A stretch of DNA of 64,000 bases from Sporohalobacter salinus (lineage in GTDB: Bacteria; Bacillota; Halanaerobiia; Halobacteroidales; Acetohalobiaceae), in assembly GCF_016908635.1 (NCBI RefSeq), contig NZ_JAFBEG010000001.1, forward strand, positions 62,001 through 126,000, written 5' to 3'. Positions within the stretch are counted from its first letter, which is position 1. Each line of letters begins with the position of its first letter. The notes under the pieces are model-generated. The model did no database searches, had not been told where the DNA came from, and worked only from the letters and a program-made list of their open reading frames with translations. This document shows, one piece after another, positions 5,743 to 40,334 of this stretch. The position numbers were made by a program, and so were the translations under genes.

Positions 5743-5767
5743 AGATTTGAGAAAGGAGGAAATAAAA

Positions 5768-7633
5768 ATGTCTATTACAGAAGAAACTGCTGAAGAACAC
5801 AAAGAAGATATAGCAGTATTATGTTGTAGAAGAGAAGAAGGAAAAGTTATTGGACCGGGAGATCTAGAGGATCCGAATATCATTCCTGAACTAGAAGCAT
5901 CTGGTTTATTAGAATTGCCAGAAAATTGTTTGAAAATAGGTGAAGTTTTGGGAGGAAAATTAGTTGAAACTGCAGATTCATTAACTCCATTAACTTCAGA
6001 CTTAGTAGAAGGAACTAAGAAAATTGAGGGTGATAAAGAAGTAGAAGAAAAAGATGAGGGGGTTGTTGATAGAGAAAGTAAAGAAGACAAGCCTTCTCAA
6101 GAAGTTATTAGAGAAACTAAGGGAAATATTGAAATTCATATTGGTGAAGGAAAAGATATAGACCTTAAAATTCCTGTGGGGGTTGGTGACAGTAGATCTG
6201 TAGTTTCTGCTTCCGAAGAAGGGGCTAGAAAAGAATGTTCTAATGTAGAAGAAGTAGAAGCAAAGCAGGAAGTTACTGAAGAAGTTAAAAAAATGCGAGA
6301 ATTGGCTAAGGAATATTATGAAATTAATAAAGTGCAACTAGGTTCTGAAACTAAAATTGATGGAAATACTTTATATATTAGAGAAGATATTTGCACAGAT
6401 GCACTAGAAGCTGATAATTTAGTATGTTCCATTGAGTTAGATATAATTAAGCCTGAAGATTATGATCAATATAGTGAGACTTTGATGGATATTCAGCCAA
6501 TAGCTACTAAAGAAGAAGGAGAGCTAGGTCAAGGAACAACTAGAGTAATAGATGGAGCAGTAATGGTTGTAACTGGAGTAGATGAAAATGGAGTACAGAT
6601 AGGAGAGTTTGGATCTTCAGAAGGAATTTTGAAGGAAAATATTATGTGGGATAGACCAGGCGCACCTGATAACGGAGATATTCTTATAAAAACTGAGGTA
6701 GTAATTAAGGAAGATACTAATATGGAGCGTCCTGGTCCTTTGGCAGCTCATAAAGCTACAGATGTAATTACTAATGAAATAAGAGAGGCTTTAAAAGAAG
6801 CAGATCAGGATTTAGCTACTAACAAAGAAGAATTTGTTCACTATAAAAAAAGTAATAGAAAAAAAGTAGTAATTATCAAAGAAATTATGGGACAAGGGGC
6901 AATGCATGATAACCTTATCTTGCCAGAAGAACCAGTAGGAGTTTTAGGAGGAGAACCTAATGTTGATTTAGGTAATTTACCAGTTGTACTTTCTCCACTA
7001 GAAGTATTGGACGGAGGGATTCATGCTTTAACTTGTATTGGGCCAGCAACTAAAGAGACTTCTCGCCATTATTGGAGAGAGCCGTTAGTTAAAGAAGTAT
7101 TAGAGGATGAAGAATTAGACTTAGCTGGAGTAATCTTAGTTGGTTCGCCTCAGGCTAATGCAGATAAATTTTATGTATCTAAAAGATTAGGTATGTTAGT
7201 AGAAGGTATGGGTGTTGATGGAGCCTTTATTACTACAGAAGGATTTGGAAATAATCATATAGATTTTGCTAGCCATCATGAACAAGTAGGTAAAAGAGAC
7301 ACTCCAGTTGTTGGAATGTCTTTCTGTGCTGAACAAGGAGCTTTAGTAGTTGGTAATAAGTATATGAAGCATATGATAGATCTGAACAAATCAGAAGGTG
7401 GAATTGAAAACGAGATCCTTGCCAATAATACTTTATGTAAAGAAGACGCTATTAGAGCAATAAGCATGCTTAAAAATGCAATTATGGGAGTAGAAGTTAA
7501 GGATCCAGAACCAAGCTATAACCATCATGTTAAAGAAAGTAATCTGGAGCTAATAGAAGAAAAAACGGAGGCAGAAATAGAAAGGGTTCCTAATGAAGAA
7601 ATTTTACCTTTAAGTGAAAGTCAGGTGGATTAA
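5768..7633 (+). CDS. prdA: D-proline reductase proprotein PrdA
   Basis: A 621-residue proprotein of the selenium-dependent D-proline reductase, which reduces D-proline to 5-aminovalerate in the cytosol. Self-cleavage between Thr422 and Cys423 in the motif HALT-C-IGPATKETSRHYW would give a large N-terminal chain and a roughly 22-kDa chain whose new N-terminus becomes the pyruvoyl group; in Clostridium sticklandii the equivalent residue is Cys421. The motif TGVDENGVQIGEFGSSEG lies in the large chain. A charged, Glu/Lys-rich segment near residues 85-170 is probably a linker. Start ATG 5768 follows GAAAGGAGG; an upstream in-frame TTG at 5747 lies before that site and is rejected. Second gene of the prd operon. 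Confidence 0.95.
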   Translation: MSITEETAEEHKEDIAVLCCRREEGKVIGPGDLEDPNIIPELEASGLLELPENCLKIGEVLGGKLVETADSLTPLTSDLVEGTKKIEGDKEVEEKDEGVVDRESKEDKPSQEVIRETKGNIEIHIGEGKDIDLKIPVGVGDSRSVVSASEEGARKECSNVEEVEAKQEVTEEVKKMRELAKEYYEINKVQLGSETKIDGNTLYIREDICTDALEADNLVCSIELDIIKPEDYDQYSETLMDIQPIATKEEGELGQGTTRVIDGAVMVVTGVDENGVQIGEFGSSEGILKENIMWDRPGAPDNGDILIKTEVVIKEDTNMERPGPLAAHKATDVITNEIREALKEADQDLATNKEEFVHYKKSNRKKVVIIKEIMGQGAMHDNLILPEEPVGVLGGEPNVDLGNLPVVLSPLEVLDGGIHALTCIGPATKETSRHYWREPLVKEVLEDEELDLAGVILVGSPQANADKFYVSKRLGMLVEGMGVDGAFITTEGFGNNHIDFASHHEQVGKRDTPVVGMSFCAEQGALVVGNKYMKHMIDLNKSEGGIENEILANNTLCKEDAIRAISMLKNAIMGVEVKDPEPSYNHHVKESNLELIEEKTEAEIERVPNEEILPLSESQVD

Positions 7634-7882
7634 GTGAATTACCCAAACCAGACTATTAAGTTTAAAGGCATAATAACAGAGGTAACTGATGGATCAGTAG
7701 CCTTGGATATAGATGGAAGATTAGGGTTTATAAAAGTGCCTAAACGAATGGTGATTTCAGATAAACCTTTAGAAATAGGTCAGTCGGTGAGTTTGAGGAT
7801 GAGTTACATTGAAGTAAAGTCAGAAAATCAAGAAGAACATGTCCAAAATTTAAGAGAATATAAAAGGAGGGAAGCAAAGTAA
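7634..7882 (+). CDS. Small CBO2463/CBO2479-domain protein of the prd operon
   Basis: An 82-residue protein whose GTG start abuts the prdA stop and whose TAA overlaps the prdB start by one base, so it is translationally coupled between the two reductase subunits. The predicted all-beta core (KFKGIITEVTDGSVALDIDGRLGFIKVPKRM) resembles the small CBO2463/CBO2479 domain that I recall being found in proline reductase operons. It has no cysteine or membrane segment. Its role is unknown; assembly or maturation of the PrdA/PrdB complex is a guess from position. Confidence 0.7.
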   Translation: MNYPNQTIKFKGIITEVTDGSVALDIDGRLGFIKVPKRMVISDKPLEIGQSVSLRMSYIEVKSENQEEHVQNLREYKRREAK

Positions 7883-8610
7883 TGAGTCAATTAACAACTG
7901 TTGAAGGGATGCAATCTGAAATATATGTACCGATTACTCCAGATCCTGTGTGGACACCTGTTGAGAAAGACCTTGAAGATATGACAGTAGCTTTGGCAAC
8001 AGCAGCTGGAGTTCACTTAAAATCACAAGAAAGATTTAATTTAGCAGGAGATTCTACTTTTAGAGAGGTCCCAGGAGATGCTTCTATAGATGAATTAATG
8101 GTAACCCACGGAGGATATGATCAAGCTGATGTAAATAAAGATATTAATTGTATGTTTCCGCTTGAAAGATTACGAGAATTAGCTGATGAAGGATTTATTG
8201 GTGAAGTTGCTTCTGTACATGCTGGTTTTATGGGAGGTGGAGGTGACCAACAAAAGTTTAAACAATCCACTGGTCCCCAAGTAGCTGAAACCTTAAAAGA
8301 AGCAGATGTAGATGCTGTTTTATTGACTGCTGGTTGAGGTACTTGTCACCGCTCTGCCGTGATTGTGCAGAGAGCGATTGAAGAGATTGGGATTCCAACG
8401 ATTATTGTTGCTGCTTTACCTCCAGTAACAAGGCAGAATGGTACTCCTAGAGCAGTATCTCCAATAGTGCCAATGGGAGCTAACGCTGGAGAACCTAACA
8501 ATTCAGAAATGCAGCGAGGAATACTTAAAGATGCCTTAGAGCAGCTAATTGAAATAGAAACTCCAGGTAAGATTGTAGATCTTCCATATGAATATACTGC
8601 TGAAGTGTAA
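7882..8610 (+). CDS. prdB: D-proline reductase selenoprotein subunit PrdB
   Basis: A 242-residue subunit carrying the catalytic selenocysteine of D-proline reductase. UGA 8335-8337 is codon 152 in the motif LLTAG-U-GTCHRSAV, where clostridial PrdB has Sec followed by GTC. The frame continues to TAA 8608-8610, ending LPYEYTAEV. Without recoding the gene would appear as two ORFs, 7882-8337 and 8359-8610, in the same frame with nothing missing between them. A stem-loop just after the UGA can serve as SECIS. The selenol attacks D-proline bound to the pyruvoyl group of PrdA. Confidence 0.95.
8350..8376 (+). promoter_or_regulatory. Putative bacterial SECIS of prdB
   Basis: CGCTCTGC pairs with GCAGAG-AG-CG (one 2-nt bulge) around a loop of about 9 nt that includes G and T. 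It starts 12 nt after the UGA at 8335-8337, inside the coding region. Confidence 0.7.
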
Positions 8611-8672: not shown

Positions 8673-9437
8673 ATGACAGATAGTGAAAAGAAGCTAAGGC
8701 GGCTTGTAATTAAAAGTTTCCATATAGAGAAAGTTAAGTTTGGAGAAGAATTTAGTATTGAGGATAATATTCTTACTATTTCTAAGGCCCCTCTTGAGAA
8801 ATTAATTACAAATGAAAAATTAATTAAGGATATTGAAGTTGAAATAATCAAGCCCGAGGAGCATGATAGGTGGATCAATACAATTATGGATATTATCCCT
8901 GTTTCTACGAAGGTGTTAGGGGATTTAGGAGAAGGAATAACTTATACTTGTACCGGAGTACATGTAATGCTTACAGGAGTAGATGAAAATGGAAAGCAGA
9001 TAGCCGACTTTGGTTCTTCAGAAGGGAATTTAAAAGATAAGCTTTATTGTGGTCGGCCAGGAACTCCAGCTAAAGAAGATTTTATAATAAATGTTGATGT
9101 AACTTTAGCAGAAGAAGGAGTTAATAAGAGATCTGGTCCTACGGCAGTTCATAGGGCTTGTGATGAATTTATTCAAAAAATAAGAAAAGAATTAAAAGAC
9201 CTTGGTGGAAATGAATGTACAGAAAAGCATGTATATCATGACAAAATTTCTCCTAACAAAAAGAAAATAGCTATTATTAAACAGGTAGCCGGTCAAGGAG
9301 CAATGCATGATAATTTGATCTTACCTGAAGAACCGAGTGGTTTCAAGGGAGGAAGATCAATAATAGATTTAGGTAATATGCCAGTTATACTTACTGCTAA
9401 TGAGTATCGAGATGGTGCTCTAAGAGCAATGACTTAA
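8673..9437 (+). CDS. prdD: PrdD, homologue of the PrdA large chain
   Basis: A 254-residue protein starting at ATG 8673 behind GAGGTGA. It aligns by eye along the PrdA large chain: IIKPEEHDRWINTIMDIIPV versus IIKPEDYDQYSETLMDIQPI, TGVDENGKQIADFGSSEG, and GQGAMHDNLILPEEP. It stops with TAA immediately after AMT, the position where PrdA has ALT before its cleavage cysteine. It therefore corresponds to a pre-cut large chain that cannot generate a pyruvoyl group. It pairs with prdE, 18 bp downstream. Function is unproven; a structural or regulatory partner of the reductase is likely. Confidence 0.9.
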   Translation: MTDSEKKLRRLVIKSFHIEKVKFGEEFSIEDNILTISKAPLEKLITNEKLIKDIEVEIIKPEEHDRWINTIMDIIPVSTKVLGDLGEGITYTCTGVHVMLTGVDENGKQIADFGSSEGNLKDKLYCGRPGTPAKEDFIINVDVTLAEEGVNKRSGPTAVHRACDEFIQKIRKELKDLGGNECTEKHVYHDKISPNKKKIAIIKQVAGQGAMHDNLILPEEPSGFKGGRSIIDLGNMPVILTANEYRDGALRAMT

Positions 9438-9455: not shown

Positions 9456-9923
9456 ATGGGTATAGGCCCTTCGACTAAAGAAACTACCTTACATCATTTT
9501 AGAGACCCTCTATTAAATGTTGTTTCCGATGATGATGATGTCGATGTAGCTGGAGTAGTCATTGTAGGTACTCCTCAAGATAATAAAGAAAAAATGTTTG
9601 TAGGCAAAAGAGTGGCTAGCTGGTTAGAAGCTATGCGAATAGAAGGAACTATTATTTCAGTAGATGGCTGGGGAAATAGCCATGTGGATTTTGCTAATAC
9701 CATTGAGCAAATAGGCAAAAGAAATATTCCAGTAGTAGGTTTAAGTTTTGTTGGTACTCAGGCTGAATTTGTGGTTACCAATGAGTATATGGATACAATT
9801 ATAGACTTTAATAAGTCTGAAGATGGAATAGAAACTGAAGTAGTAGGAGAGAATAATGTAATTGGTATTGATGCTAAAAAAGCTTTGGCAACTTTGAAAC
9901 TAAAAATGAAAAGGGAGGAATGA
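9456..9923 (+). CDS. prdE: PrdE, homologue of the PrdA small (pyruvoyl) chain without the cysteine
   Basis: A 155-residue protein starting at ATG 9456 after GGGAGG. Its N-terminus MGIGPSTKETTLHHFRDPL matches the PrdA segment CIGPATKETSRHYWREPL that follows the cleavage site, and the rest follows the PrdA small chain (GDGWGN versus EGFGN, HVDFA, KRNIPVVGLSF). The pyruvoyl-forming Cys is replaced by start Met and Gly, so no pyruvoyl cofactor is expected. Together prdD and prdE look like a duplicated prdA split into two genes at the processing point. The name follows the clostridial prd nomenclature. Confidence 0.9.
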   Translation: MGIGPSTKETTLHHFRDPLLNVVSDDDDVDVAGVVIVGTPQDNKEKMFVGKRVASWLEAMRIEGTIISVDGWGNSHVDFANTIEQIGKRNIPVVGLSFVGTQAEFVVTNEYMDTIIDFNKSEDGIETEVVGENNVIGIDAKKALATLKLKMKREE

Positions 9924-15479: not shown

Positions 15480-15497
15480 AAGTGATATTTAATTAAA

Positions 15498-15549
15498 AGA
15501 GGGATCATCCTTAGAAAATTAGATAAAGGATGATTCCTCTAATTTTTTG
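15498..15549 (+). terminator. Terminator after the chemoreceptor
   Basis: AGAGGGATCATCCTT and AAGGATGATTCCTCT pair with one mismatch around an AT-rich loop, followed by AATTTTTTG. Confidence 0.88.
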
Positions 15550-15870
15550 TTTAAAAAATTCTTCAAAAAACCGTAATAAATTATTTATTAACGTCCAAAG
15601 TTAAAGGGGTTGGTTAGCTACTATATAGCTAAAAGAGATAAGCCTGCTGCAACGCCTTTGATAAAAATTAAAAATAAAAAAATAAGTGATTTATTGAAGG
15701 AAATTAATTAAAGTTTTATGTAAAAGAATGAGTAATAAAATAGAAGAATTAAAAATATAAATATTCTGATATTTCAAAGGTTGTTGAAGCATTACAGCAG
15801 AGATTAGAAATTATTAGATGTTAGGCTAATTTTTGAGAGTATGACGAAGGTATAGTTAGATATTATATTT
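15550..15870. other. Gene-poor stretch with possible coding relics
   Basis: No intact gene is seen. An open stretch near 15592-15711 reads without a start codon as KGLVSYYIAKRDKPAATPLI and ends at TAA; near 15730-15823 fragments such as MSNKIEELKI and ISKVVEALQQRLEIIRC lie in different frames. They look like decayed genes, but I recognise no family. Confidence 0.35.
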
Positions 15871-16011
15871 TTACCAAAGTTTATTATAATTAGTGGCATT
15901 ACAATTAGGGCATGGGGGTAATTTATCAACAATATTATCTAGCTTTAGAGTTTCACCGCAATTTTTACATTGATAAGATCCTTTTCCAGGTCTATCACCA
16001 GTTGATGGCAT
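15871..16011 (-). CDS. 46-residue zinc-ribbon protein
   Basis: A very small gene on the minus strand, ATG at 16009-16011, TAA at 15871-15873, with an excellent ribosome site (AAGGGAGGTGA) seven bases upstream. The product has two CxxC knuckles, CKNC and CPNC, separated by about 17 residues, with PPCP before the second, as in rubredoxin-like zinc ribbons of the DUF1451-type. It is probably a cytosolic zinc-binding protein of unknown function. It is flanked by non-coding DNA. Confidence 0.75.
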   Translation of the reverse strand: MPSTGDRPGKGSYQCKNCGETLKLDNIVDKLPPCPNCNATNYNKLW

Positions 16012-16443
16012 AAAATCACCTCCCTTCTTTTACATAATTCTATAGAAGGAGAGGAAACCCTTCAAAATTTGTGGAAAGTAAACTTAGCTTTATTTAGTAG
16101 TTAGTCAATTTGAACCTGCAATTAGAATAGCAATTTAGAATGGATAATTAGGATATATCTTTTAGTAATGGAATAGTTTAGTGATTTTAAGTAGTAAGGT
16201 TAGATGATTGGGGATGATCATGAAATTAAAGATTTAGAAATAATAGAAGCAAGACTATCATAAGGTAGTTTTAGTTTAGAGTAATAGTATATATTTTTGT
16301 TATAATTATGTAATTATGATATTATTTTCTTAATATTTGATGAAATTTGTTAAAGAAAAAGGTCAGGTTAATGAGTGAAAGGAAGAGTGAATGAAAAAAA
16401 GGTAATATTTTAACTAAAAATACTTGAGGTATATAAAAAATAC
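16012..16443. other. Gene-less AT-rich stretch
   Basis: I see no supportable gene. A short frame near 16204-16262 (MIGDDHEIKDLEIIEARLS) ends in TAA and may be the tail of a lost gene. The right part leads into the promoter at 16444. Confidence 0.4.
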
Positions 16444-16472
16444 TTGACAATATTAAGCATGTCCTATAAAAT
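16444..16472 (+). promoter_or_regulatory. Sigma-A promoter of the structured RNA
   Basis: A perfect -35 TTGACA (16444-16449), a 17-bp spacer and TAAAAT (16467-16472, five of six) place the start near 16479. No protein gene lies downstream on this strand before the terminator. Confidence 0.75.
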
Positions 16473-16478
16473 TAACTT

Positions 16479-16786
16479 GAAAGCAGAGGCTTTGACGCAT
16501 AATGCTTGAATGTTCGTCAGAGTTTAGGTAGCTAAGGTTTCATATATGTAACGTATAACTTAGTTAGACATATAATATAATATAAAGGAAGCCAGCCGGA
16601 TAGCTGAGATCCGGCTGGTAGCCCAAAATCCCTTCTGTTCAAGAGAGGAGCTTATCTAGCAGTTCTAAGATTTGTATTAGCAATTCTAAAAGGATAAGTA
16701 AAATCTTAGGATGCATTTTTAACACTCCCTTTCAGTGGAAGGGTGTGACCATCCCTGTGCCAGCAGGAGATGGTCTTCCTTATTTA
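16479..16786 (+). ncRNA. Unrecognised structured RNA of about 308 nt
   Basis: Between the promoter at 16444 and the terminator-like hairpin at 16747-16775 there is no credible ORF but a chain of stems: CTTTGACG/CGTCAGAG (16490-16522, extendable to about 11 bp), TAGCTAAG/CTTAGTTA (16529-16566), a perfect CCAGCCGGAT/ATCCGGCTGG (16592-16618) with loop AGCTGAG, a perfect CTAAGATTT/AAATCTTAG (16665-16709), CACTCCCTT/AAGGGTGTG (16723-16747, one mismatch), and GACCATC-CCTG/CAGG-GATGGTC followed by TTCCTTATTT. It lacks the conserved cores of RNase P RNA, tmRNA, SRP RNA or T-boxes that I know. It could be a highly diverged 6S RNA, a new small RNA, or a riboswitch-like leader that lost its gene. Confidence 0.6.
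16747..16786 (+). terminator. Terminator-like hairpin of the structured RNA
   Basis: GACCATC and GATGGTC (7 bp) enclose CCTG/CAGG with a single bulged A, then TTCCTTATTT. The T tract is interrupted, so efficiency is uncertain. Confidence 0.6.
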
Positions 16787-16816
16787 AAGTATAGCATAAA
16801 ATTGGATGCTAAGTCA

Positions 16817-16862
16817 ATAAAAAGAAATTAACTGTTTATATAAACAGTTAATTTCTTTTTAT
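16817..16862. terminator. Bidirectional perfect 46-bp palindrome
   Basis: A perfect inverted repeat with 23-bp arms centred at 16839/16840, with A runs on the left and T runs on the right, able to stop transcription both from the RNA on the plus strand and from the peroxiredoxin gene on the minus strand. Confidence 0.8.
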
Positions 16863-16949
16863 ATATAATCATAAATACTTATTTTTAGATGATTAAATAT
16901 AAATTGATAGAAGCCAAGTAACAAATAGCTGAATTTCATTACTTGTATT

Positions 16950-17639
16950 TTATTTCTTATTATAGTCTGTATAACATAGATACCAGTCTATACAGTCATA
17001 ACCGGGGCGATTTTCGACTCTTTCTAATAATTGCTGATAAGTTTTTGGTGGGGGTAGTACTACCGGATCATCAGGTTCCCAATTGGCTGGTGTAGCAACG
17101 TTTTTACGATCTGCTAGCTGTAAAGCATCTAGAGTACGTAAAATTTCTGGAATTGAGCGACCAACTTCCAAAGGATAGTAGAAAATATGTCTGATTATGC
17201 CTTGAGGATCAATAATAAAGACTGGTCTAACGGTAGAAGTAGTACTTACTTCTTCGGAAATCATTCCGTAGAGTTTGGCAATTTTTTGATTGGTATCAAC
17301 AACAATAGGAAACGGAATTTCTATTCCAGTTTCTTCGTATATATCGTAAACCCAGGCTAAATGAGCATGAAGAGTTCCAATACTTAATCCTAATAATTCT
17401 GTTCCTCGTTCTTTGAATTTATCGTATGCCTCTGCAAAGGCAATGAATTCAGTAGTTCAAACTGGTGTAAAATCACCAGGATGAGCAAAAAAGACTAACC
17501 AGCTATCACGATAGTCTGAAAGTGATCTTTCCCCAAAAGTTGTTATTGCTGTAAATCCAGGAGCTTCAGCACCAATCTGTGGTAAACATACTCTTGGCGT
17601 TTTGCTTTGATATGAGTTATCTTTCCGTTGATTAGACAT
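16950..17639 (-). CDS. Selenocysteine-containing peroxiredoxin (Prx6/archaeal TPx type)
   Basis: A 229-residue peroxiredoxin reducing peroxides. UGA at 17459-17457 (codon 61) occupies exactly the peroxidatic cysteine in HPGDFTPV-U-TTEF, and the frame then runs on unbroken (AFAEAYDKFKERGTELLGLS) to the stop at 16952-16950. This is recoding, not a nonsense mutation: the rest of the frame is intact, two prd genes in the window also use Sec, and a stem-loop follows the UGA. The C-terminal YDCIDWYLC holds the two cysteines seen in archaeal-type enzymes. Start ATG 17639 follows GGAGGG. Selenol at this site should speed peroxide turnover in an anaerobe. Confidence 0.93.
17427..17442 (-). promoter_or_regulatory. 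Putative SECIS of the peroxiredoxin gene
   Basis: On the minus strand TGCCT pairs with AGGCA around the loop TTGCAG, starting 14 nt after the UGA codon (17459-17457). Confidence 0.6.
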
Positions 17640-17763
17640 TTATTTCCCTCCTTTTCTCATAGTTTTGCGAATATTATATTAAGGAAAAGATAAGAGTGTT
17701 AAATTTTTTATTGAATATTTAAAGAATTCATTTACTTTTTTATTTTAAAGAATAAAGAGTCTC

Positions 17764-17792
17764 TTGAATAAGTTAGTAAAATATTTTATAAT
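17764..17792 (+). promoter_or_regulatory. Sigma-A promoter of the ribose operon
   Basis: TTGAAT, a 17-bp spacer and a perfect TATAAT (17787-17792). The start point falls at the edge of the operator at 17797. Confidence 0.8.
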
Positions 17793-17796
17793 ATAG

Positions 17797-17824
17797 TTGT
17801 AAGCGCTAACGTAATCGTTTACAA
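17797..17824 (+). promoter_or_regulatory. RbsR/CcpA-type operator over the rbs start point
   Basis: TTGTAAGCG and CGTTTACAA are inverted arms with one mismatch, 10 bp apart. Within it, TGTAAGCGCTAACG (17798-17811) fits the cre consensus at 13 of 14 positions. LacI-family repressors (RbsR, CcpA) bind such sites, so autorepression by RbsR, catabolite repression, or both are likely. Confidence 0.75.
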
Positions 17825-17837
17825 TAGGAGTGGTTCT

Positions 17838-18854
17838 ATGGGACTTACAATTAAAGATATTGCTAAAAAAGCCGGTGTTTCTATTGCAACAGTTTCTCGA
17901 GTATTAAATGATAAACCTGATGTTAGCGAAGATACTAAAAAAGAAATTCAAAGTATTATAAATGAACTGGGTTATAATCCTAGTGGTGTTGCCCGAGGAT
18001 TGGTTTTAAGTCAGACATATACAATTGGTTTGATCATACCTGATATTAGTAATCCATTCTTTCCAGCTGTAGCTAGAGGAGTAGAAGATGAGGCTAAAAA
18101 ATCAGGTTATTCTGTTATCTTTTGTAATACTGATAATAATAAGAAAGATGAAAAAGAGGCAATTCAGCTCATGAAGAATAAAAAGGTAGATGGCATTATA
18201 CTATCTCTATCCATACATAATAAACAAGAACTGAAAAGCCTAAAAGAAAATGGATTTCCAGTAGTGCAGATTGATAGAAAGATACCAGATTCTGCTTTGG
18301 CAGCTGTAACTATTGATAATGTATTATCTGGTTATCGAGCAGTTGAATATCTAGTTAAGCTGGGACATAAAAGCTTAGGTCATATTACTGGGGATTTGAA
18401 TACTAAGACGGCTCAAGATAGGTTAAAAGGATTTAAACAAGCGACAAAAGAGTTGGAAGCTGTCTATAAAAATGAGTGGATTTTAGAAGGTGATTATAGT
18501 AAAAAAGCCGGTTATGAAGGAATGAAAACGATTTTAAAACAAGATGAACGACCGGAAGCTGTTTTTATTGCTAATGATTTAATGGCTCTTGGAGCTTATG
18601 AAGCAGTTTATAATTACGGATTAGAAATTCCAGATGATATTTCTATTATTGGGCATGATGATATAGAAGTAGCTTCAATAGTTAAACCAGAATTGACTAC
18701 TATAGTTCAACCCAAATATCAATTAGGAGTTGAAGCAGCCAAGATTTTAATTAAACAGATAGAGAATGAAGATTTAGCAGATAGAAAAGAAATTGTTTTA
18801 GATCCTGAATTAGTTGTTAGAGATTCTACAGGAAAGGAGCAAGAGAATGAATGA
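17838..18854 (+). CDS. rbsR: LacI-family ribose operon repressor
   Basis: A 338-residue repressor starting at ATG 17838 behind AGGAGTGG. The N-terminal helix-turn-helix (TIKDIAKKAGVSIATVSRVLN) and hinge (NPSGVARGLVLSQT) are followed by a periplasmic-binding-like ligand domain (GLIIPDISNPFFPAVARGVEDEA). It heads the ribose operon with an operator at its own start point, so ribose or ribose-phosphate probably relieves repression. Its stop overlaps the rbsK start by 8 bp, giving translational coupling. Confidence 0.92.
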   Translation: MGLTIKDIAKKAGVSIATVSRVLNDKPDVSEDTKKEIQSIINELGYNPSGVARGLVLSQTYTIGLIIPDISNPFFPAVARGVEDEAKKSGYSVIFCNTDNNKKDEKEAIQLMKNKKVDGIILSLSIHNKQELKSLKENGFPVVQIDRKIPDSALAAVTIDNVLSGYRAVEYLVKLGHKSLGHITGDLNTKTAQDRLKGFKQATKELEAVYKNEWILEGDYSKKAGYEGMKTILKQDERPEAVFIANDLMALGAYEAVYNYGLEIPDDISIIGHDDIEVASIVKPELTTIVQPKYQLGVEAAKILIKQIENEDLADRKEIVLDPELVVRDSTGKEQENE

Positions 18855-39694: not shown

Positions 39695-39724
39695 GTCTAT
39701 CAACATCATAAATATGTTAATGAC

Positions 39725-39998
39725 GTTGAAAGAGGAAAGTAAATCTTAGATAAAATTACAGCGAGCTAAGGATAGTGAGAGCTTAGTTTAAAGTTTAAGG
39801 TTGAAGTTCCCTCTGGAGTTGCTAGTTGAAATAATAAGTAGACTAAGCCGGCATTCCTCCGTTATCTAGGGAAAGGGATATAAGAGTAGATTTACTCCGT
39901 ATCCTATAGAGGGGATTAGCTATAGAAGCTAATCAATCAGAATGGTAACACGAATTCAAACTCTTCGTTTCTGGAATAGAGGCGGAGAGTTTTTTTGA
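39725..39998 (+). promoter_or_regulatory. T-box leader 1, probable Phe specifier
   Basis: The T-box landmarks appear in order: GAAAGAGGAAAGTA near the start, the specifier region GAAGTTCCCTCTGGAG with probable codon TTC (39807-39809), stem II with TTGAAATAATAAGTAG, AGCCGG and CCGTTA, the T-box AATGGTAACACG (39941-39952), and a terminator ACTCTTCG/CGGAGAGT (39960-39990) with seven T. The T-box sequence departs from canonical GGTGGTACCGCG but keeps TGGT for pairing with the tRNA acceptor end. The base after the specifier is C rather than the usual purine. Confidence 0.85.
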
Positions 39999-40020
39999 TT
40001 TTAAAGTTAAATATAATTAA

Positions 40021-40285
40021 AGGCAAAGAAAGAGTTAAGTAGATTAAAGGAAATTTATTGTAGAGAGGAGATGTCATTGGCTGTAAGCATCTTCAAATGA
40101 TCTTTAATTGAAATTTCGCTCTGGAGCTGTATGGCTGAATCTTAGTAAGCTATGCCGGCAAGTTAAGTCGTTAATTAAACTGAGAGGATTATATTACAGG
40201 TTGTAGTATAATCTAATTAGGTGGTACCGCGAAACAAGGCCTATCTTGTTGCGTCCTAACTGGACGACAGGATAGGTCTTTTGTA
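40021..40285 (+). promoter_or_regulatory. T-box leader 2, probable Phe specifier
   Basis: A second, canonical T-box directly after the first: GAAAGAGTTAAGTA, GAGAGGAG, specifier region GAAATTTCGCTCTGGAG with codon TTC (40115-40117) followed by G, CCGG, the T-box AGGTGGTACCGCG (40219-40231) and a long terminator stem (40238-40279) ending GGTCTTTTG. The gene follows about 50 nt later. Confidence 0.92.
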
Positions 40286-40334
40286 GTTGTTGATGGTTGA
40301 CTATATTATTAATTAATAATTAGGGGTGGATAAA

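Follow-up and report, generated by a model that had tools for sequence, protein, structure and literature searches.

Our analysis indicated that the segment at 16444-16817 very likely belongs to a new family of type I toxin-antitoxin modules, with the toxin encoded on the minus strand and an antisense antitoxin RNA on the plus strand. The segment lies in a 64,000-nt stretch of Sporohalobacter salinus (GCF_016908635.1, NZ_JAFBEG010000001.1, 62,001-126,000 of the forward strand), here called the window, within which all positions are counted; the studied block covers 16444-16786. The plus-strand RNA proposed for this block in a preliminary description is probably the antisense antitoxin of the minus-strand toxin gene, and the family of such cassettes in these salt-loving bacteria (Halanaerobiales) is apparently undescribed. 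The features supporting this reading, namely the open reading frame (ORF), the Shine-Dalgarno (SD) sequence, promoter motifs, terminator, family conservation, covarying pairings and the phage neighbourhood of the relatives, can be read from the sequence itself.

The strongest signals of the block are those of its minus strand. There, an extended -10 promoter (TTGACT-N18-TATACT, with TGC before the hexamer) occupies 16817-16788 and was the best site of its interval (p=0.002 against shuffles); its position places the predicted transcription start at about 16781. The predicted toxin mRNA (16781-16584, about 198 nt from the predicted start to just beyond the terminator) has a minimum free energy (MFE) of -67.6 kcal/mol. 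Its SD sequence, AAGGGAG (16731-16725), was read directly 8 nt upstream of the ATG at 16716, which opens an ORF of 25 codons plus TGA (16716-16639) for the Leu-rich peptide MHPKILLILLELLIQILELLDKLLS. The preliminary description had found no ORF, which holds for the plus strand and fails for the minus strand, where this peptide, with a GRAVY of 1.37, has the character of a small (<60 aa) hydrophobic toxin served by a ribosome-binding site (RBS). The 12-nt near-direct repeat reported earlier is present (copies at 16657 and 16678, 92% identical at a spacing of 21) and is a coding heptad repeat: within 16689-16657 of the minus strand, two LELL heptads, TTAGAATTGCTA and TTAGAACTGCTA, lie 21 nt or 7 codons apart and differ once, by a synonymous Leu change (TTG/CTG). 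Similarly, the perfect 10-bp GC-rich hairpin described before (16592-16601/16609-16618) belongs to the intrinsic terminator of the toxin mRNA (16618-16582; CCAGCCGGAT..ATCCGGCTGG then CTTCCTTTAT, hairpin 16618-16592), the only terminator recognised by a scan of 15480-17840 (2.4 kb). A composite search of both strands for a promoter scoring at least 11, an SD sequence, an ORF of 20-32 codons with at least 56% hydrophobic residues and a terminator returned a single place in the 64 kb, namely this locus; 4000 shuffled versions of the region yielded no instance. No family in Pfam, NCBIfam or PHROG matched the window peptide or its relatives.

Searches with the window peptide as query, and then with profiles built from two and from four peptides, revealed seven distinct cassettes including that of the window (16817-16584, minus strand), the first match being a weak one in an Orenia-type genome that turned out to be a complete cassette. 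The six others, which encode peptides of 24-25 aa of the same pattern, comprise a second copy in the same genome (L081/L089), one each in Fuchsiella alkaliacetigena (L052 = L114), Orenia metallireducens (L090 = L120) and genome G007 (L091), and two in genome G012 (L050/L088 and L101); a near copy of the Orenia cassette on an IMG/VR phage contig (L122) differs from it in one codon, synonymously (the ORE11/VIR122 pair). Most members follow the form MxWLKxxxxILxILQxxLxLIDKLL, and the family peptides combine a GRAVY of 1.2-1.6 with a high hydrophobic moment. Common to all seven cassettes are a hairpin at the 5' end, the ORF with an anti-SD about 28 nt upstream of its ATG, a terminator and, in the 3'UTR, an SD-like element that reads GAAGGG in the window and TAGGAG in most cassettes; in all seven the sense promoter is of the extended -10 type at -101 to -114 from the ATG (combined p 1.4e-10). 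In 20 comparisons of diverged ORFs, codon position 2 showed 2-5 differences and positions 1 and 3 showed 6-14, a pattern that fits a hydrophobic peptide and not a bare RNA. Tape-measure, tail, lysozyme, terminase and DnaC-like genes adjoin the Fuchsiella, second own-genome, G012 and phage-contig cassettes, that is, four cassettes plus the phage-contig copy, and the contig of the Orenia metallireducens cassette is itself catalogued as viral. Weak peptide matches in other genomes of the phylum, mostly in long or unrelated frames, were not accepted. Two further observations concern IMG/VR contigs: on L111, from 6926-6961 onward, the same CCTCCTAAA...AAGGAGGTG motif lies upstream of an ORF for 44 basic-hydrophobic residues, which may be an unrelated small peptide of a phage with a comparable hairpin in its RNA, and at the edge of L107 (18-58, minus strand) an anti-SD/SD motif with the short frame MNVIKL is possibly a further member of the family, truncated where the contig ends.

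When the 1733 frames of the window were scored with a profile built from the six other peptides and composition correction was off, the window peptide came first (22.8 bits, E 8e-6); with the composition correction of HMMER, its score was only 4.9 bits. The window copy is therefore treated as the most divergent member, and its placement in the family relies on gene anatomy no less than on sequence. It is flanked by a chemoreceptor gene and a selenoprotein peroxiredoxin gene, with no recognisable prophage around it. This position outside a prophage, together with the divergent peptide, a shorter 3'UTR, the lack of a sizeable gene in the 15500-16440 flank and the absence of the cassette from the close relative A. 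arabaticum (G001) in the peptide and profile searches, would suit a decayed remnant that may no longer be expressed or toxic. An intact promoter, SD sequence and terminator, an ORF free of interruptions and preserved, compensated pairings argue against decay, which we consider rather unlikely; as a sub-case of the toxin-antitoxin reading, its probability overlaps with that of the latter. In the neighbouring peroxiredoxin gene (16953-17639, minus strand), an in-frame TGA stands at the expected active-site position (DFTPVU), so the product is probably a selenocysteine peroxiredoxin; its homologues in G001, G003 and G004 also have one in-frame TGA. No counterpart of the block was found beside the peroxiredoxin gene in the flanks read in relatives.

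The plus-strand consensus promoter of the preliminary description was recovered at 16444-16472 (TTGACA-17-TAAAAT, 11 of 12 consensus matches); taken alone, it is modest (p=0.027). Across the family, opposite-strand promoters at about +225 to +300 nt from the start codon gave a combined p of 1.2e-6, against 0.81 and 0.94 in control intervals; the predicted antisense promoter is individually significant in five of the seven cassettes and weak in two Orenia-type cassettes. Since most homologous cassettes have an antisense promoter at the same place, it is likely that a plus-strand RNA is transcribed here, too, from a promoter of its own. The terminators of the antisense strand in the family are located before or at the sense promoter, and from these and the promoter we infer a probable antitoxin RNA at 16479-16786 that covers the whole toxin mRNA. 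The terminator claimed for the plus strand is doubtful, as the candidate is imperfect and escaped the terminator scan, whose sole hit is on the minus strand. The antisense RNA may end at an imperfect hairpin (16748-16775) followed by TTCCTTATTTA, or at a hairpin at 16817-16862, where the inverted-repeat scan found a perfect 23-bp repeat with U tracts on both sides; this repeat could serve as terminator of both the antisense RNA on the plus strand and the peroxiredoxin gene on the minus strand.

Amphipathic helices of such length also occur as regulators and secreted peptides. The product of the minus-strand gene might be a small amphipathic peptide that acts in the membrane, in signalling or after secretion and is no self-toxin, with antisense transcription merely tuning its expression, and the hydrophobicity and high hydrophobic moment of the family are compatible with either reading. 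We judge this improbable, since a prophage setting, a masked SD sequence and a convergent antisense promoter are jointly typical of type I toxins (PMC6563280, PMC6733600), and we noticed no gene for export or processing in the neighbourhoods read. Counted against the toxin-antitoxin reading were the 4.9 bits of the window peptide after correction, the lack of adjoining phage genes, the p of 0.027 for its antisense promoter, the two Orenia-type cassettes without a convincing one, the tied mRNA folds described below and the absence from A. arabaticum.

The structure that had drawn attention to the block was confirmed in z-scores relative to dinucleotide shuffles, the 308 nt folding at -98.3 kcal/mol against -74.7 +/- 4.8 for shuffled sequences (z -4.9). 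In a sliding scan, the excess was located mainly in 16584-16781 (z about -5.5 on the plus and about -4.1 on the minus strand), and the 5' part of the plus-strand RNA (16479-16575) was unremarkable (z -1.5). The segment 16584-16781 coincides with the predicted minus-strand mRNA for the conserved-family peptide, measured from its putative start to the terminator. The stem CTAAGATTT/AAATCTTAG (16665-16673/16701-16709) and the helix CTTATC/GATAAG (16651-16656/16693-16698) are both present and would cross, as previously described; in our judgement, the 6-bp crossing helix by itself is near chance expectation. A covariance model built from the single plus-strand sequence matched only itself and, weakly, its own reverse strand; in outline, the block is thus close to being its own reverse complement, and this prompted a reading of the other strand. 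The earlier failure to match known RNA families was borne out by strict and permissive Rfam scans of the region, no match exceeding the gathering score there or in the six related loci, and no tRNA or tmRNA was detected at the locus. Conservation of the plus-strand RNA at the DNA level was not found: searches in relatives, the class, about 400 genomes of the phylum, phages and plasmids gave only the sequence itself or chance-level matches. A riboswitch or leader was dropped because the downstream gene runs the other way and has its own terminator in between, and a guide RNA of a mobile element was dropped, no tnpB or IscB-like gene being recognised nearby. A stand-alone structured non-coding plus-strand RNA, acting in trans or as a scaffold opposite a coincidental ORF, would agree with the 11 of 12 promoter matches and with a plus-strand fold slightly more stable than that of the minus strand, and is improbable given that neither DNA nor structure-model searches found a homologue while searches with the minus-strand peptide uncover a family whose genes are built alike, that relatives show the codon-position pattern and that no shuffle reproduced the composite coding signal. 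Of the unrecognised RNA with its own promoter, there remain a structured region, no Rfam family and a likely plus-strand transcript, which is probably not a stand-alone non-coding RNA.

Returning to the toxin-antitoxin reading, fold predictions suggested that the toxin mRNA controls its own translation. A 5'UTR hairpin (CACACCCTTccactgAAAGGGAGTG, 16746-16722, minus strand) is predicted to sequester the SD sequence with a first anti-SD (anti-SD 1, CCCTTC), and the six other cassettes have a CCTCCTA/GGAGG pairing as its equivalent. In the 3'UTR, GAAGGG (16635-16630, minus strand) mimics the SD sequence and is complementary to anti-SD 1; its pairing would release the SD sequence, and CTCCTCTCTT, located where the ORF ends, would become the new partner of the latter. 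The two states are tied in the window mRNA, the alternative fold being at -67.4 against the MFE of -67.6 kcal/mol. Column-wise pair counts were precluded by a MAFFT alignment of the mRNAs that was too poor in the helices, and the arms were therefore compared by the energies of matched and swapped pairings. For the 5'UTR with the 3'UTR, matched pairs beat swapped ones and only 2 of 5040 permutations were as good, and for the SD/start region with the ORF this number was 34 of 5040, kinship being ignored in both counts. In staged folding, which is prediction only, the SD sequence had an unpaired probability of 0.14-0.42 at each stage in all seven cassettes, indicating a masked RBS; it paired first with the 5'UTR anti-SD and finally, in most members, with an anti-SD inside the ORF, and while the latter holds it, the 3'UTR mimic pairs with the 5'UTR anti-SD in most members. 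The ends of the window mRNA are also predicted to pair (5' AAGGAAG, 16781-16775, with 3' CTTCCTT, 16590-16584); as a family feature, this end pairing was rejected on inspection for lack of conservation and was retained for the window only. The fuller proposal, a new prophage-borne type I family with an mRNA relay of two anti-SDs (5'UTR and ORF) and a 3'UTR SD mimic, in which completion of the transcript would swap the masking helix while translation stays off, is put forward tentatively and we lean somewhat against it; such a relay has not been described in the type I literature compared.

In the mechanism that we propose, the 25-residue hydrophobic amphipathic peptide would probably insert into the membrane of the cell that makes it, and its mRNA of about 200 nt, transcribed from the extended -10 promoter, would probably be kept untranslated by its own fold. 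The upstream anti-SD would mask the SD sequence first; upon completion of the RNA, the second anti-SD, within the ORF, would take over the SD sequence and the 3'UTR mimic would capture the first anti-SD. The RNA from the convergent plus-strand promoter, antisense to the entire toxin message, would pair with it and block or destroy it. Transcription, translation, toxicity and antitoxin action are all putative at this stage, as is the role of the module in holding a prophage or chromosomal segment.

By analogy, the locus resembles zorO/dinQ in its peptide and aapA3-type systems in its mRNA control. ZorO of E. coli O157:H7 is a Leu-rich peptide of 29 aa with a GRAVY of 1.4 and with E16 and D26 ten residues apart (PMC9860968); the window peptide is similar in size, Leu-rich, and has E11 and D21 at the same spacing, a resemblance that could be a convergence of amphipathic helices. 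The RBS of zorO is masked by 5'UTR structure (PMC8309996), as predicted here, whereas OrzO is divergently encoded with about 18 nt of pairing (PMC3919570) in a different phylum, and the predicted antisense RNA here is convergent with full overlap. In aapA3 of Helicobacter pylori, hairpins mask the SD sequence one after another, with control elements located both in the 5'UTR and in the ORF, before a long-distance 5'-3' interaction yields an inert mRNA (PMC6733600). Successive masking and a long-distance interaction are likewise predicted here; however, the final state of aapA3 masks the SD sequence by a third anti-SD in the 5'-3' interaction, whereas here the 3'UTR SD mimic would capture the first anti-SD, and no sequence relation between AapA3/IsoA3 and the window locus was noticed. 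Type I systems of B. subtilis and C. difficile are commonly located in prophages, and for C. difficile antisense RNAs that are convergent and overlapping have been described (PMC6563280); CD0956.2/RCd10, bsrG/SR4 and txpA/RatA share with our family a small hydrophobic, prophage-linked toxin. Those prophage toxins have 28-60 aa and a charged C terminus (PMC6563280), in contrast to the 24-25 aa of the present family, of which most members end in (D/E)xIDKLL or similar and which lacks a Pfam or NCBIfam match. The enterobacterial timP mRNA was first annotated as the non-coding RNA RyfA, and mutually exclusive mRNA folds control its translation (PMC11228461); timP/TimR thus parallels our locus in a toxin mRNA first taken for non-coding RNA and in the alternative folds predicted here, and differs in its peptide and in a pseudoknot that activates translation, which our scheme does not require.

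If the reading is correct, it adds a compact family of 24-25 aa with a full-overlap antisense RNA and an easily tested scheme of RNA control, accounts for structured intergenic segments of these genomes that are orphans, and illustrates how a toxin mRNA may be mistaken for a structured non-coding RNA, as in the case of RyfA/timP (PMC11228461).

Other features of the window were noted in passing. A prd-like gene cluster contains a PrdB-like subunit of D-proline reductase whose frame continues through an in-frame TGA (7882-8610, plus strand; U152), and a PrdA-like paralogue is split into two ORFs (8673-9437 and 9456-9923, plus strand), apparently at the expected self-cleavage place of the intact paralogue (5747-7633, ALTCIG), which raises the question of whether it is a naturally pre-split proprotein. 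Further along, two tandem T-box leaders (39717-40261, plus strand) lie upstream of a DAHP-synthase-like gene at 40326.
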